Shown: positions 1-7,123 of the stretch, piece after piece
How positions within the stretch are numbered: the stretch's first letter is position 1
How the letters are laid out: the number at the start of each line of letters is the position of its first letter
NCBI GenBank assembly: GCA_016780385.1
Contig: JADHLY010000003.1
Span: 27,574-91,573 of the forward strand
Length of the DNA stretch: 64,000 nucleotides
Direction: 5' to 3'
Origin: Flavobacteriales bacterium
Lineage (GTDB): Bacteria > Bacteroidota > Bacteroidia > Flavobacteriales_D > Sanyastnellaceae
Position numbers and translations under genes: made by a program
Notes under the pieces: model-generated
Told to the model about the DNA's origin: nothing
Databases searched by the model: none
The model's input: only the letters and a program-made list of their open reading frames with translations

Positions 1-1251
1 GAAGACTACGACCGTGGTGTTGAAGCCATCCGCGACATTCTAAAGGGCAACATCAAAGACCTCGTTCGCACATACGACACAGCCATGCGCGAGGCGGCAG
101 AGCGCTTTGCATTTGAAGCTGCAGAAGACTTCAAGCGCCGCAAGGGGGCCCTCAAAAAATTCCAAGCCAAAAGCACCGTTGTCAATCCCAGCATCCACGA
201 CGTCGAGGTGTATTCCGTTGTGAGCGACCCCGCAGCTGGGTACGTCAACTTCATGAAGGTCATGGATGGCAGCATCGTTCACGGACAAACCATAGAGCTC
301 CGCAAAAGGCTCGAGGAAAGCGACCAAGACCTGCTCGAATATGGGATTTTGGAATTCCGCCGCAGGTTTGACCTGCACAGCCCAGAGATCTATACCAACC
401 TCGATGTGCGGCCCATTCTTGGCGACGTGAAATGGCACGTGCCCCAGCGCGGCGACAAAAAGCGGTTGATTGAGCTTTCCGAGCGCAATGCCAAGTACAC
501 CATGCTCGACAAGCGCAAGCAACAAGAGCAAGTGGACCCAGAGGCGGCACAAAACCGCATCATGGAGACCCTCCAAAAAGACCTCCACCTCAAAGAGCTT
601 CCGGTACACATCGAGTGCTTTGACAACTCCAACATCCAAGGCACCAACCCCGCATCGGCGTGTGTGGTGTTCAAGAAAGCCAAGCCCGCCAAAGCCGACT
701 ACAGAAAGTTCAACATCAAGACCGTCGAGGGACCCGACGACTTTGCATCCATGGCTGAAGTGGTGCACCGCCGATACAAGAGGCTCCGGGACGAAGGCGA
801 AGCACTGCCGCAACTGATCATCGTAGATGGTGGAAAAGGGCAGTTGTCCAGTGCCGTCGGTGCTTTGGAAGACTTAGGGCTCATGGGAAAGGTGGCCATC
901 ATCGGCATCGCGAAGCGTTTGGAGGAACTCTACTTTCCAGGAGACAGCATACCCCTGCACCTCGACAAGCGATCTGAATCATTGAAACTGATTCAACGCA
1001 TGCGCGACGAAGCCCACCGCTTCTCGCTGGAACACCACAGGAAGCGCAGGAGCGCCGCTGCTTTGCGCAGCGAATTGGACGACATCCCAGGCATAGGGCC
1101 CGCCACCCGCCACAAGCTGCTCGCTGCATTTGGCACAGTCGATGGAATCAAAGCCGCAAAAGAATCTGAGTTGCTTCGTGTCACCTCACTCAAGGTCATC
1201 CAAGCCATGCGCTCACACTGGTCAGAAGACACTGGCCAAGCATCAGAGTAA
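1..1251 (+). CDS. uvrC: Excinuclease ABC subunit C (UvrC), C-terminal part, truncated by window start
   Basis: Frame open from base 1; UvrC endonuclease core (HIECFDNSNIQGTNPASACVVF, IIVDGGKGQLSSA) and C-terminal HhH (DIPGIGPATRHKLL). Confidence 0.96.
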   Translation, partial: EDYDRGVEAIRDILKGNIKDLVRTYDTAMREAAERFAFEAAEDFKRRKGALKKFQAKSTVVNPSIHDVEVYSVVSDPAAGYVNFMKVMDGSIVHGQTIELRKRLEESDQDLLEYGILEFRRRFDLHSPEIYTNLDVRPILGDVKWHVPQRGDKKRLIELSERNAKYTMLDKRKQQEQVDPEAAQNRIMETLQKDLHLKELPVHIECFDNSNIQGTNPASACVVFKKAKPAKADYRKFNIKTVEGPDDFASMAEVVHRRYKRLRDEGEALPQLIIVDGGKGQLSSAVGALEDLGLMGKVAIIGIAKRLEELYFPGDSIPLHLDKRSESLKLIQRMRDEAHRFSLEHHRKRRSAAALRSELDDIPGIGPATRHKLLAAFGTVDGIKAAKESELLRVTSLKVIQAMRSHWSEDTGQASE

Positions 1252-1261
1252 GGAACCCTTG

Positions 1262-2374
1262 TCAGTGGGGGTTCGAAAACGCCGGATTGGACAGGAAGTC
1301 AGAGTCTGTCAGGGTGTGCAAAAACGCGATGAGGTCAGAGCGGTCTTGGCTGTCCAAGCCCAACCCGTAGTCCACGTTGTATTGCATCATCGGGTCCATG
1401 GAGGTGCTGGCCACTGCCCCGTGGTCATAATGGTCAATCACCTCATCGATGTTGGCAAAGCGGCCATCGTGCATGTAAGGGGCCGAGACCATGACATTGC
1501 GCAATGAGGGGGTTTTGAATTTGCCACGGTCTGCATCTTCTCCTGTCACGGCCATATAACCGATGTCCTCCATGTCCTCGTCGGCATCCAGCCCGTTGTT
1601 GCCAAACTGGTGACTGGCAAAGTCCAGACCACTGTGGCAATGGGCGCAGTCAGCACCACTAACCTCAGGGTTGAATGGGTCGAATTCATCGAAGAACAAC
1701 TGCCTCCCTCGCTCCTCGCTCTCTGTCAATGACGTCTCCCCCAGCAGCCATTGGTCGTACTTGCTGTTGTTGGACACCATGGTCAGCAAGAATTGCTCCA
1801 GGGCTTTGGCCATCCTCTCAGCGTTGATTTCGTCGGTCCCAAAAGCCCGGGTAAAGGCATGGCGATACTGCTCCAAGGCACTCAACTCGACGGTCAAGCT
1901 CTCCAGGTCTTCGTCCATTTCCAAGCCGTCCTCAACGGGATCAAGCACCTGTTCTCTCAGGGTTGCTGCACGGCCATCCCAGAAAAATCCATGGCCGTGG
2001 TTTTCATCGTGGTGAAGGTGCCAAGCCAGGTTCGAAAGGACCATGCTGTGTCGGGGCCCTTCAATGCCCTGAATGCCCGCACTAAAAACAGCCGCATCCG
2101 AGAAGTTGCGCTGCTGGGCGTGGCAGTCTGCACAGGCTTGGGTGTTGTCACCCGACATCCGCTTCTCGTGAAACAACATCCTGCCCAACTGCACCCCGGC
2201 TTCTGTGAGCGGGTTGTCCTCAGGCCATTGTGGTTCCGGAAAATGCCGAATGTCCAGATTGAATGGTGTTGGGTCCAAGACCACAGGCTCAATGGGGTCT
2301 AACACAGGGTCAGGGTTGCACCCCATCCACAACCCCACAAAGGCCGAAAAAAAGAAGAGACTTCTGCGTGTCAT
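1262..2374 (-). CDS. Diheme cytochrome c peroxidase / MauG-MbnH family protein
   Basis: Two CxxCH heme motifs (CADCH, CAHCH), TPSLRNVMVSAPYMHDGRF motif, lipoprotein-like N-terminus; ATGA overlap with the upstream MbnP-like gene. Confidence 0.9.
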   Translation of the reverse strand: MTRRSLFFFSAFVGLWMGCNPDPVLDPIEPVVLDPTPFNLDIRHFPEPQWPEDNPLTEAGVQLGRMLFHEKRMSGDNTQACADCHAQQRNFSDAAVFSAGIQGIEGPRHSMVLSNLAWHLHHDENHGHGFFWDGRAATLREQVLDPVEDGLEMDEDLESLTVELSALEQYRHAFTRAFGTDEINAERMAKALEQFLLTMVSNNSKYDQWLLGETSLTESEERGRQLFFDEFDPFNPEVSGADCAHCHSGLDFASHQFGNNGLDADEDMEDIGYMAVTGEDADRGKFKTPSLRNVMVSAPYMHDGRFANIDEVIDHYDHGAVASTSMDPMMQYNVDYGLGLDSQDRSDLIAFLHTLTDSDFLSNPAFSNPH

Positions 2375-3324
2375 CCCTGCACCCAGCGCCGGGTAAAACG
2401 ACCACCTTGGCCTGAAACCGTGATCAAAAATGCCCCTGCAGGAACGTCTTTGAGATCATAGGTCCGCGTTCCAGAAGGGATATTGGTTTGGCCCAAAGAG
2501 CGGCCCAACAAATCCAAAAGCTCCACTTGGACCACCGAGCCAAGAGGTGCGTCAAATTGAATGCGCGCACCGCCGTCCAAAGGCATCAGGTTAAACCCAA
2601 AATCCTGAGGCACGGTGGCCTCAACATTGCTCGCCCCAGGCAAGCGAAATACATGGTCAACAGTATTGTTACAGACCAAGACCGCTTCTCCGCTTTCTCC
2701 GTGGTTGATCAGGCCTGCTGACACAGAAAGGTCTTGGTAGAAGCCCAACACATCGGCTTCAACATCCAACACCAAAGTTCCGTCCTCCATGCTGGCCAAA
2801 ACCTCCATCTCTCCTGGGAAATGATTGTTGTCGCCCAATGCATGGATTTCGTGGGTGATGATGCCATTGATGCCTGCTCCGCCTTCCAATGCAACAAAGC
2901 GATAGCCCGCAGACCATCCCCAGTGCATGCTCGGCACCTGCGGCGCCAATGGGTGATCAGATGGCCAGGCAGCAGGGTCGGCGTGGTTGTTGTTGGGGTC
3001 AATACCCACACTAAACTTCAAGGATTCCACATTGGAAACCCCGTCAACCTCACCCAGAGCGTGGGCCACATCCTCGAAGGCGTCGGCCAACACGTAGGCA
3101 CCCTCGATGGGCGTCTCCATTCCTCCGTCGTGGACGAGGGTGAACATGCTGAGGTAATACTCTAAACGATTGATCTCGACCGCTTCACCCAAGATGGTGA
3201 CGACTTCCGCGTCCGCATTGAAATCCAACTGACCCACTTTGTGGTCAATGCGCAATTCAACAGGCGTTTGTGCCTGAACAAAGCCGGCAATGGCAACGAA
3301 AAAGAAAAAGAGTGCAGCCCGCAT
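2371..3324 (-). CDS. MbnP-like copper-binding family protein with C-terminal T9SS type A sorting domain
   Basis: Signal peptide; MHWGWSAGYRFVALEG motif typical of MbnP; C-terminus LLDLLGRSLGQ...YDLKDVPAGAFLITVSGQGGRFTRRWV resembles a T9SS CTD. Confidence 0.82.
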   Translation of the reverse strand: MRAALFFFFVAIAGFVQAQTPVELRIDHKVGQLDFNADAEVVTILGEAVEINRLEYYLSMFTLVHDGGMETPIEGAYVLADAFEDVAHALGEVDGVSNVESLKFSVGIDPNNNHADPAAWPSDHPLAPQVPSMHWGWSAGYRFVALEGGAGINGIITHEIHALGDNNHFPGEMEVLASMEDGTLVLDVEADVLGFYQDLSVSAGLINHGESGEAVLVCNNTVDHVFRLPGASNVEATVPQDFGFNLMPLDGGARIQFDAPLGSVVQVELLDLLGRSLGQTNIPSGTRTYDLKDVPAGAFLITVSGQGGRFTRRWVQG

Positions 3325-3387: not shown

Positions 3388-4434
3388 ATGGACGCGGAAC
3401 GCACAGAAATAGGTACCATCGGCGAATTTGGCCTTATTGCTGAACTCACCAAGGACATCAAGCTTCAACATCCGCGCACGGTCCTTGGTGTAGGGGATGA
3501 TGCCGCGATCGTGGCCCCACCTGCTTCGGGGAAGCAAACCGTGGTCAGCACCGATTTGCTGTGCGAAGGGATTCATTTCGACCTGATGTATGCCCCGCTC
3601 AAGCACTTGGGCTACAAAGCCATTGTGGTCAACCTGAGCGATTTGTGTGCCATGAATGCACTGCCGACCCATGTGGTGGTCGGCCTCGCCCTCTCTAACC
3701 GATTTAGCGTTGAAGCCGCCAAGGAGTTGTACGCCGGCATGAAGCTCGCTTGTGAGCGCTACAAGGTGGATTTGATCGGCGGAGACACCACCAGCTCAAA
3801 GTCTGGTCTGATGATTTCTGTGACCGCTTTCGGGGAGGTAGAAAAGGACAAGGCAACCCTCCGGAATGGTGCAAAGGCAGGGGATCTCGTGTTGGTGAGC
3901 GGAGAACTTGGGGGGGCCTTCATGGGCCTTCAGGTGCTCGAACGTGAAAAACACGTGTTTCAAGAGGCGCCAGGTGCACAACCCGATTTGACGGGCTTTG
4001 ACGGATTGCTCGAGCGCCAGCTCAAGCCCGAAGCACGCGTAGACGTCGTCGAAGAACTGGCCAAGCTTGAAGTCGTTCCAACATCCATGATCGACATCTC
4101 AGACGGTCTCGCATCCGAAGCCCTGCACATTGCATCGGCATCGGGATGTGGCGTTCGTTTGCACGAGGACAAAATTCCCATGGGCGAAAAGATGTACGAG
4201 ACGGCCCGGGCATTCAATTTGGACCCCACCCTGTGCACCCTCAGCGGTGGCGAGGACTACGAATTGCTCTTCACAGTGCCGCAAGACCGTTTCGAACACT
4301 TCAAAAACCACCCCATGTTCTCCATTGTAGGCTACATGACGGACGACCCTAACGAGCGCACCCTCATCACGCGCAACGGGATGGAGACCGAACTCAAGGC
4401 GCAAGGCTGGGACGGCTTCAAAGAGGAAGAATAA
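3388..4434 (+). CDS. thiL: Thiamine-monophosphate kinase
   Basis: ThiL motifs GVGDDAAIV, STDLLCEGIHFDL, GGDTTSSK, ISDGLASE. Confidence 0.95.
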   Translation: MDAERTEIGTIGEFGLIAELTKDIKLQHPRTVLGVGDDAAIVAPPASGKQTVVSTDLLCEGIHFDLMYAPLKHLGYKAIVVNLSDLCAMNALPTHVVVGLALSNRFSVEAAKELYAGMKLACERYKVDLIGGDTTSSKSGLMISVTAFGEVEKDKATLRNGAKAGDLVLVSGELGGAFMGLQVLEREKHVFQEAPGAQPDLTGFDGLLERQLKPEARVDVVEELAKLEVVPTSMIDISDGLASEALHIASASGCGVRLHEDKIPMGEKMYETARAFNLDPTLCTLSGGEDYELLFTVPQDRFEHFKNHPMFSIVGYMTDDPNERTLITRNGMETELKAQGWDGFKEEE

Positions 4435-4891: not shown

Positions 4892-6340
4892 ATGAGCGCC
4901 GCAGAGGAAAACCCGCTTTTGGATGAGTTCACCCGCAAGGAGTATGAATTCGGCTTCACGACGGACATCGATGCAGATACACTTGCACCGGGGCTCAATG
5001 AAGAGGTCATCCGCATCATCAGCAAGAAAAAGAACGAGCCAGAGTGGATGCTCAATTGGAGGCTGGAGGCCTTTAGCGTCTGGCAAACCATGGAAGAACC
5101 GGAATGGGCACATGTTCAGTACAAGAAGCCCGACTACCAGGCCATCAGCTATTACAGCGCGCCCAAATCCAAGGCACCCCTGGGTTCCCTCGATGAAGTC
5201 GATCCGGAGTTGCGGGCGACCATGGACAAGCTCGGCATCTCCATGGAGGAGCAGAAACGCCTTTCTGGCGTCGCTGTGGACTTCGTGATGGACAGTGTCT
5301 CCGTCGCCACCTCTTTCAAGGACAAGTTGGCCGAACTCGGCATCATCTTCTGTTCCATGAGTGAGGCCATTCAGGAACACCCCGAGCTGGTGAAGCAACA
5401 CCTCGGTACTGTAGTGCCGGTCAAGGACAATTTCTTCTCCGCGCTCAACGCTGCGGTCTTCACCGACGGGTCTTTCTGCTACATCCCCAAGGGCGCTAGG
5501 TGCCCCATGGAATTGTCGACCTACTTCCGCATCAACGAAGCGGGAACCGGTCAATTCGAGCGCACACTCGTGGTCGCCGAAGCGGGCAGCTATGTGAGCT
5601 ACCTCGAAGGCTGCACGGCACCGCAGCGCGATGAAAACCAACTGCACGCAGCGGTGGTAGAGCTGATCGCCAAGGACGACGCCGAAATCAAATACAGCAC
5701 GGTCCAGAATTGGTACCCCGGTGACGCCGAAGGCAAAGGAGGCGTCTTCAACTTCGTCACCAAGCGTGGCATCTGTGAAGCCCGCGCGAAAATCAGCTGG
5801 ACCCAAGTTGAAACGGGTTCTGCCGTCACCTGGAAATACCCCAGCTGCATCCTGAAAGGCGATGGCAGCGTGGGCGAATTCTATTCCGTGGCTGTCACCA
5901 ACAACGCACAGCAGGCCGATACCGGTACCAAGATGATCCACCTCGGTGCCAACACGCATTCGACCATCATATCCAAGGGGATTTCCGCCGGAAACAGCCA
6001 AAACAGCTACCGCGGCCTCGTCCAAATCGGACCCCGCGCCCGCAATGCCCGGAACTTTTCGCAGTGTGACTCGCTCTTGATGACCGACACAAGCGGTGCC
6101 CACACGTTCCCGTACATCGAGACGAAGAACCCCACCGCCCACGTCGAACACGAAGCGACCACGTCCCGCATCGGAGAAGACCAAATCTTTTACTGCCTTC
6201 AACGCGGCCTCACCGAGGAGCAAGCCATCGGACTGATTGTCAATGGCTACGCCAAAGAAGTCCTCAACAAACTGCCCATGGAGTTCGCCGTGGAAGCCCG
6301 CAAATTGCTCGCCATCTCCCTCGAAGGGAGCGTGGGTTGA
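4892..6340 (+). CDS. sufB: Fe-S cluster assembly protein SufB
   Basis: SufB family signature ([34 protein letters not shown]); ATG at 4892 chosen over upstream in-frame start. Confidence 0.97.
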
Positions 6341-6361
6341 ATACGCCATCCCGATCCAACC

Positions 6362-7123
6362 ATGCTCAAGATCGAAAACCTCCACGCCCGCATCGGCGAT
6401 ACCGAAATCCTCAAGGGCCTGACCCTCAGCCTTGGGACAGGAGAAGTGCACGCCATCATGGGACCCAATGGCTCCGGAAAGAGCACCTTGGCGAGCATCC
6501 TCGCCGGGCGTGAAGACTATGAAGTCACGGCAGGCAGCATCACTTTTGACGGGGTCGACCTGCTCGAACTCGATGCCACAGAACGCGCTGTTGCTGGCAT
6601 CTTCCTCGCCTTTCAATACCCGGTGGAAATCCCCGGTGTGTCCAACATCAACTTCCTGCGGACCGCCCTGAATAGCATCCGCGAACAGCGCGAAGAAGCC
6701 CCCATCTCCGGCAAGGATTTCCTCGCCAAGGTCAAGGCTTGTGCCCAACTGGTCGAACTTGACGGCAAGCTGCGGGACCGCTCGGTCAACGAAGGCTTCA
6801 GCGGCGGTGAAAAGAAGCGCAACGAAGTCTTCCAAATGGCCATGCTCGAGCCGCGCCTCGCCGTGCTCGACGAAACGGACAGTGGACTGGATATCGATGC
6901 CTTGCGCATTGTCTCCCACGGCGTCAACAGCATGCGCTCCGCAGACCGCAGCTTCCTGGTCATCACGCACTATCAGCGCCTGTTGGACCACATCGTGCCC
7001 GACCATGTGCACGTGCTTGCCGGTGGCCGCATTGTGCACAGCGGAGGCAAGGAACTCGCCCTCGAACTCGAAGAGAAGGGGTACGATTGGATTGTCGACG
7101 CGCAAGCCACCGAACAGGCATGA
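6362..7123 (+). CDS. sufC: Fe-S cluster assembly ATPase SufC
   Basis: Walker A GPNGSGKST, FSGGEKKRNEV, LDETDSGLD. Confidence 0.97.
   Translation: MLKIENLHARIGDTEILKGLTLSLGTGEVHAIMGPNGSGKSTLASILAGREDYEVTAGSITFDGVDLLELDATERAVAGIFLAFQYPVEIPGVSNINFLRTALNSIREQREEAPISGKDFLAKVKACAQLVELDGKLRDRSVNEGFSGGEKKRNEVFQMAMLEPRLAVLDETDSGLDIDALRIVSHGVNSMRSADRSFLVITHYQRLLDHIVPDHVHVLAGGRIVHSGGKELALELEEKGYDWIVDAQATEQA

Follow-up and report, generated by a model that had tools for sequence, protein, structure and literature searches.

The question raised by this locus is whether a pair of MbnP- and MbnH-like genes could place a copper site made from an oxidised tryptophan on the bacterial surface by way of the T9SS. 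Within the window, which is the whole 64,000-nucleotide stretch of Flavobacteriales DNA analysed here, the open reading frames reveal two minus-strand genes, 2371..3324 (317 aa) and 1262..2374 (370 aa), that share an ATGA, an overlap already described in an earlier note on this DNA. The pair is flanked by the 3′ end of a plus-strand gene at 1..1251, which we take to be uvrC, and by a divergent plus-strand gene at 3388, presumably thiL; no copper gene or copper transporter was seen adjoining it. A search of the genome of the window, an 84%-complete assembly, did not find the methanobactin gene MbnB, which is consistent with the earlier remark that no methanobactin precursor lies nearby. The interpretation of the genes as an MbnP/MbnH-type pair, already proposed in that note, is supported by the results below, and the pair is one old, widespread branch of the known MbnP/MbnH pair. 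The upstream gene shows the following features:

2371..3324, minus strand: T9SS-tailed MbnP-family protein, 317 aa (PF20243 at 80.8 bits; top structural matches to MbnP 7l6g)
3271..3324, minus strand: Sec signal peptide of type I, residues 1-18 (MRAALFFFFVAIAGFVQA), without a lipobox Cys, from the sequence and the first helix of the model (2-14); cleavage site predicted
2725..3267, minus strand: MbnP domain, residues 20-200, as matched by PF20243
2914..2928, minus strand: M133-H134-W135-G136-W137, the WxW motif, with W135 as predicted kynurenine precursor (W135 in 142/142 relatives; aligned with GMAWNWQAG of 7l6g)
2842..2844, minus strand: H161, a His conserved family-wide (140/142 relatives) and a candidate copper ligand
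2374..2595, minus strand: T9SS type A C-terminal sorting domain, about residues 244-317 (TIGR04183 at residues 253-315; Foldseek match to 8qb1)

The MbnP identity of this protein, whose stretch MHWGWSAGYRFVALEG occupies residues 133-148, was confirmed by PF20243 (cut-off of 27, E=1.6e-22). However, TIGR04052, the equivalog model of MbnP with WxW, gave 35.4 bits for a cut-off of 140, so that the HMM check suggested in the earlier note had a mixed outcome: the Pfam models of MbnP and CCP_MauG were matched, but the NCBIfam equivalog cut-offs of both MbnP and MbnH were missed. All 25 tailed relatives tested match TIGR04052 at E 0.01 or better. An AlphaFold2 model obtained from an alignment of 25 tailed relatives (mean pLDDT 86.9) has the MbnP fold, the top six matches of a Foldseek search against the whole PDB being the six chains of MbnP 7l6g (E 1e-7 to 3e-6), with moderate TM-scores of 0.41-0.46 that are explained, at least partly, by the extra tail domain and the signal peptide of the query. 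The identity between both proteins is about 20%, and as a single-sequence query the window protein found no match in the PDB; 7l6g was reached by a profile search, in which GMAWNWQAGRRF of 7l6g was aligned with SMHWGWSAGYRF of the window protein.

The first Trp of the WxW motif in the MbnP of Methylosinus trichosporium OB3b is the one converted to kynurenine, in agreement with the name of the NCBIfam model and with the papers on CorA and MopE, and W135 is therefore its counterpart in the window, given the alignment with 7l6g. Among the same 142 MbnP domains, taken from the order and beyond, W137 is conserved in 138, and both M133 and the WxW motif are kept in all 53 tailed MbnPs. The Trp of AAWPSDHPL, which the earlier note had put forward as the one to examine, was discarded as the modified residue, because the WxW Trp is the one that aligns with 7l6g and is invariant family-wide. 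The loss of the modified Trp and of the copper ligands, which the note had named as grounds to abandon its reading, did not occur, as both the WxW motif and the invariant His are kept. By analogy with the known pair, W135 would be oxidised to kynurenine and the protein would bind copper, with H161 as a candidate ligand.

The sorting domain proposed in the earlier note was recovered with TIGR04183, the NCBIfam model of T9SS type A tails (27.2 bits, cut-off of 23), and by the fold, as the tail of the model matches the C-terminal T9SS domain of mirolase (8qb1, TM-score by target of 0.67-0.69). The Pfam tail model PF18962 stayed below its cut-off (13.7 of 27), and an unrelated Bacteroides DUF3244 structure, 4g5a, also appeared among the Foldseek matches. 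In the genome of the window, full-length SprA (2359 bits) and PorU (1091 bits) indicate that the translocon and the sortase are present, together with 42 matches to TIGR04183. A surface location of the window MbnP can thus be proposed by analogy with other T9SS cargo. The downstream gene, in turn, encodes:

1262..2374, minus strand: MbnH/MauG-type dihaem enzyme, 370 aa, placed in the beta clade (beta lineage; TIGR04039 at 231 bits)
2318..2320, minus strand: C19, probable lipidation Cys (LWMGC), from the sequence; a lipobox is seen in 31/33 beta enzymes encoded next to tailed MbnPs
2120..2134, minus strand: first haem motif CADCH, residues 81-85, from the sequence
1979..1981, minus strand: W132, inter-haem Trp (FFWDGR), aligned with a W of 6e1c
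1634..1648, minus strand: second haem motif CAHCH, residues 243-247, from the sequence
1427..1429, minus strand: Y316, aligned with the axial-ligand Tyr294 of MauG (phmmer alignment to 3rn1; Tyr in 106/106 beta enzymes with a letter there)

Membership of the CCP/MauG family (CCP_MauG, E=1.2e-51), as the earlier note had recognised from both haem motifs, is clear. The best-scoring model is TIGR04039, named 'MbnH family di-heme enzyme', at 231.4 bits for a cut-off of 362.85, and the enzyme is therefore not an equivalog, whereas the MauG equivalog model comes second with 168 of 444 bits. In the PDB, MbnH 6e1c reached 177 bits (E=5.5e-51) and the best peroxidase 125 bits. Classical dihaem peroxidases have a Met at the site aligned with Tyr294 of MauG; the Tyr found there in the window suggests that Y316 would be the sixth ligand of the second haem, as in MauG and MbnH and not as in CCP. 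The ordinary CCP that the note had named as a threat to its reading is thus ruled out by the model scores, the PDB scores and Tyr316. The lipobox, detected with a simple pattern of our own, makes lipidation at C19 plausible. Acidic residues after the lipobox Cys are a feature of Bacteroidota surface lipoproteins and often occur at that place in the beta enzymes beside tailed MbnPs, the window enzyme being weakly acidic there.

Taken together, the sequences point to a pair of MbnP/MbnH type whose MbnP is probably a T9SS cargo carrying a surface copper site formed via kynurenine. The pathway would start with the export of MbnP by Sec through its type I signal peptide and its folding in the periplasm, where the co-translated MbnH-like enzyme, probably an outer-membrane lipoprotein, would oxidise W135 to kynurenine by means of its MauG-type haems. 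The kynurenine, together with H161 and perhaps M133 or H134, would then form a Cu(I) site. Directed by its C-terminal domain, the finished MbnP would pass through SprA, and PorU would remove the tail and anchor the protein on the cell surface. Finally, the surface MbnP would bind copper for its uptake or buffering. Of this scheme, sequence and fold establish the gene pair, its domains, the tail, the conserved residues and the secretion genes, whereas lipidation, Trp oxidation, copper binding, the succession of events, the surface location and the part played in acquiring copper are extrapolated from homologues.

Genes of MbnH type are also found elsewhere in this genome. Contig 67 (L060:6892-10066) encodes a second MbnP/MbnH pair, formed by a lipoprotein MbnP (LLVTGC) and an MbnH, directly after which comes the gene for a transporter of Nramp type (50.8 bits, cut-off of 50). 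On contig 13 (L114:1354-3449), an MbnH/MauG-like gene of a third kind overlaps the gene for a T9SS-tailed thioredoxin/AhpC-type protein. Comparison of loci revealed that the enzymes next to MbnP fall into two separate, ancient and well supported lineages, alpha and beta, and that in the 41 loci where two dihaem genes follow MbnP there is always one of each (41/41), in the order alpha-beta in 38 and reversed in 3. The inter-haem Trp is present in 106/107 beta and in 1/58 alpha enzymes; the Arg305 site has Arg in all 107 beta and Ser in 53/58 alpha enzymes, and the axial Tyr site of alpha contains 47 Tyr and 11 Phe. The window enzyme is a beta (441.8 bits, vs 281.1 for alpha). The alpha of the same genome maps to contig 10 (L115:4274-6060), and its neighbour codes for a secreted protein of 238 aa (PDYDGNGFISVPDLTGFLTAWEM...) that neither Pfam nor NCBIfam recognises. 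In 11/11 close relatives checked, among them the three without beta beside MbnP described below, an alpha-type gene likewise lies apart from MbnP, and in 10/11 (L256-L264, L269) it adjoins the gene for the same secreted protein. A MauG-type enzyme may thus have a new substrate in this family. No convincing similarity was found between the alpha partner in L051 and that in L115.

The preferred reading assigns the oxidation of W135 to the adjacent beta enzyme, and its main difficulty, at least for a strict view of one substrate and one enzyme, comes from the loss of beta in three close relatives. In L041, L042 and L043 the adjacent MbnH is gone and the tailed MbnP is kept with its WGW; the end of uvrC lies 9-36 bases past the MbnP stop, a clean loss of the gene between mbnP and uvrC around 6000-7000. 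The three genomes retain alpha, and in two of them a lipoprotein MbnP pair, MbnH included, is kept as well. The third, G127, lacks a second MbnP, and TIGR04039 still matches two of its genes, alpha and one like that on contig 13. The adjacent enzyme may therefore be dispensable, or another one may act in trans. Alpha in trans is thus a live alternative, and it is unlikely, yet conceivable, that beta is not the modifier of the tailed MbnP, or not the sole one, and that an alpha encoded elsewhere, or both enzymes, would carry out the oxidation. The constant pairing of alpha with beta in two-enzyme loci and the existence of tailed MbnP loci with either alpha only (13) or beta only (15) point in the same direction as the beta losses, but the inter-haem Trp is nearly always missing from alpha, the close relatives of the window have alpha fixed next to another secreted protein, and beta is still translationally coupled to MbnP in the window itself. 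A wider scheme, which is possible but only tentatively held, would be that of a Bacteroidota two-enzyme MbnP system, in which two ancient MauG-like enzymes differing in their inter-haem Trp would divide the steps, or the substrates, between them in the service of an MbnP, either lipid-anchored or, in one clade, exported by T9SS, with alpha having re-paired with a new secreted family in the close relatives of the window. If true, MauG-type modification would extend to a substrate not recognised before, the secreted partner of alpha. The alpha/beta pairs offer a natural test of the role of the inter-haem Trp in MauG-type chemistry.

With regard to the copper site at the surface, the protein may have its Trp oxidised and be displayed with the MbnP fold for a job other than copper acquisition, such as redox sensing, peroxide defence or the binding of another metal. 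The lack of a methanobactin gene in the genome searched, of a copper transporter adjoining the window pair, and the Nramp-type gene after the contig-67 lipoprotein pair, which belongs to a family of divalent metal carriers, would fit such a role. However, the WxW motif and the conserved His are fully kept, and the Trp-oxidised, surface-associated relatives CorA and MopE bind copper, so that this possibility is regarded as improbable and copper acquisition as the favoured role.

The T9SS route of the preferred reading can be followed across the MbnP family. MbnP loci were gathered across the order and in named genomes, and 142 were sorted by what follows the MbnP domain: 110-124 residues in 53 and 27-41 in the other 89, with none between, figures to be taken as counts and not as frequencies, since length or resemblance to the window protein guided part of the choice of tailed loci, and near-identical genomes present in two collections account for some rows. 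A tree of the MbnP domain alone grouped the tailed proteins in a single clade (53/53; FastTree 96, IQ-TREE 98), with members from Saprospiraceae, Chitinophagales, Crocinitomix, Kapabacteria and Ignavibacteria records. Lipoboxes are frequent outside this clade and no true one is found inside, the few pattern matches there corresponding to over-long starts or to a chance Cys in the signal peptide without the lipobox position. TIGR04183 was matched by 18/25 tailed MbnPs and by none of 30 untailed or tail-trimmed ones. These sequences indicate that the T9SS tail replaced the lipid anchor once, in one clade. An MbnH-type gene lies directly downstream in 46 of the 53 tailed loci. PF20243 itself was found in 110/120 genomes sampled from the order, and a phylum-wide profile search gave at least 13/396, a lower bound because five candidates were scored per genome. 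It is very improbable that the C-terminal domain is a generic beta-sandwich instead of a working T9SS signal, leaving MbnP in the periplasm, as might be argued from the low PF18962 score, the 7/25 tailed relatives below E 0.01 for TIGR04183 and the match to 4g5a, given that the curated TIGR04183 cut-off is passed, the tail coincides with lipobox loss in one clade, the fold matches 8qb1, and full-length SprA, PorU and many such tails occur in the genome.

Several neighbours of MbnP genes deserve mention on their own. About 12 tailed MbnP genes are immediately preceded by a gene for a small Cys-rich protein (L152:2214-2777, L073:2552-3016, L132:4004-4426, L075:3871-4266), and that of L152 passes the NCBIfam model HYC_CC_PP (NF047658), a protein for which there is no match in the genome of the window. 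At L047:5217-12683, a small Cys-rich protein is followed by a tailed MbnP, a pair of MbnH, another Cys-rich protein, a protein of 763 aa resembling a TonB-dependent receptor and a lipoprotein MbnP, in a cluster that looks like a metal uptake locus. Where the MbnP is untailed and soluble (L178:1421-2965, L063:4630-6045), the genes upstream often encode an ECF sigma factor and a Metal_resist-like protein, and the one downstream a YHYH protein with a T9SS tail.

Among known systems, the MbnP/MbnH of M. trichosporium OB3b (7l6g, 6e1c) shares with the window pair the MbnP fold, the WxW motif, the adjacent MauG-like dihaem enzyme and the positions of the Tyr and of the inter-haem Trp, whereas the window MbnP differs in its low identity, its T9SS tail, the missed equivalog cut-offs and the lack of methanobactin genes in the genome searched; it has a single Cys, and 7l6g is named a four-Cys-motif protein. 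MauG, also a dihaem enzyme that modifies Trp residues of another protein, has its axial Tyr294 aligned with Y316, but acts on a different substrate and its equivalog model scores low for the window enzyme. Bacterial dihaem cytochrome c peroxidases (e.g. 1iqc) belong to the same superfamily and share the two CXXCH motifs and the inter-haem Trp, but they score below MbnH and the window has a Tyr at the Tyr294 site. With type A cargo of the T9SS, the window MbnP has in common the C-terminal sorting domain, the Sec signal peptide and the presence of SprA and PorU, the difference being that the cargo is an MbnP. With PF20243, TIGR04052, TIGR04039 and TIGR04183, the window proteins would be named by automatic annotation, and the presence of MbnP/MbnH pairs well outside the producers of methanobactin was already pointed out in 2013 (PMC3621798). 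No paper combining T9SS with MbnP, MauG or copper was found in the open literature, most subscription papers being outside the search. Direct functional parallels are CorA/CorB of Methylomicrobium album BG8 and MopE/SACCP of Methylococcus capsulatus Bath, each paired with a MauG-like dihaem protein, CorA and MopE being surface-associated or secreted copper proteins with a kynurenine made from Trp (PMC3912023). CorA, which adjoins the MauG-like CorB, is surface-associated and binds Cu(I) by two His near Kyn62, in a site formed by Kyn62, H64, H114 and water (PMC3912023). No sequence match to CorA or MopE was found for the window protein; CorA has Kyn62-x-His64 (W-x-H) where the window has W-x-W, and there is no T9SS in the CorA/MopE systems. 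A clade of MbnPs sent by the T9SS would tie the pair to the cell exterior, and hence to metal capture, in a large phylum. In any case, since CorA and MopE are already surface kynurenine copper proteins, what is new here is not surface copper binding but export by the T9SS and the single event in which a tail took the place of the lipid anchor.
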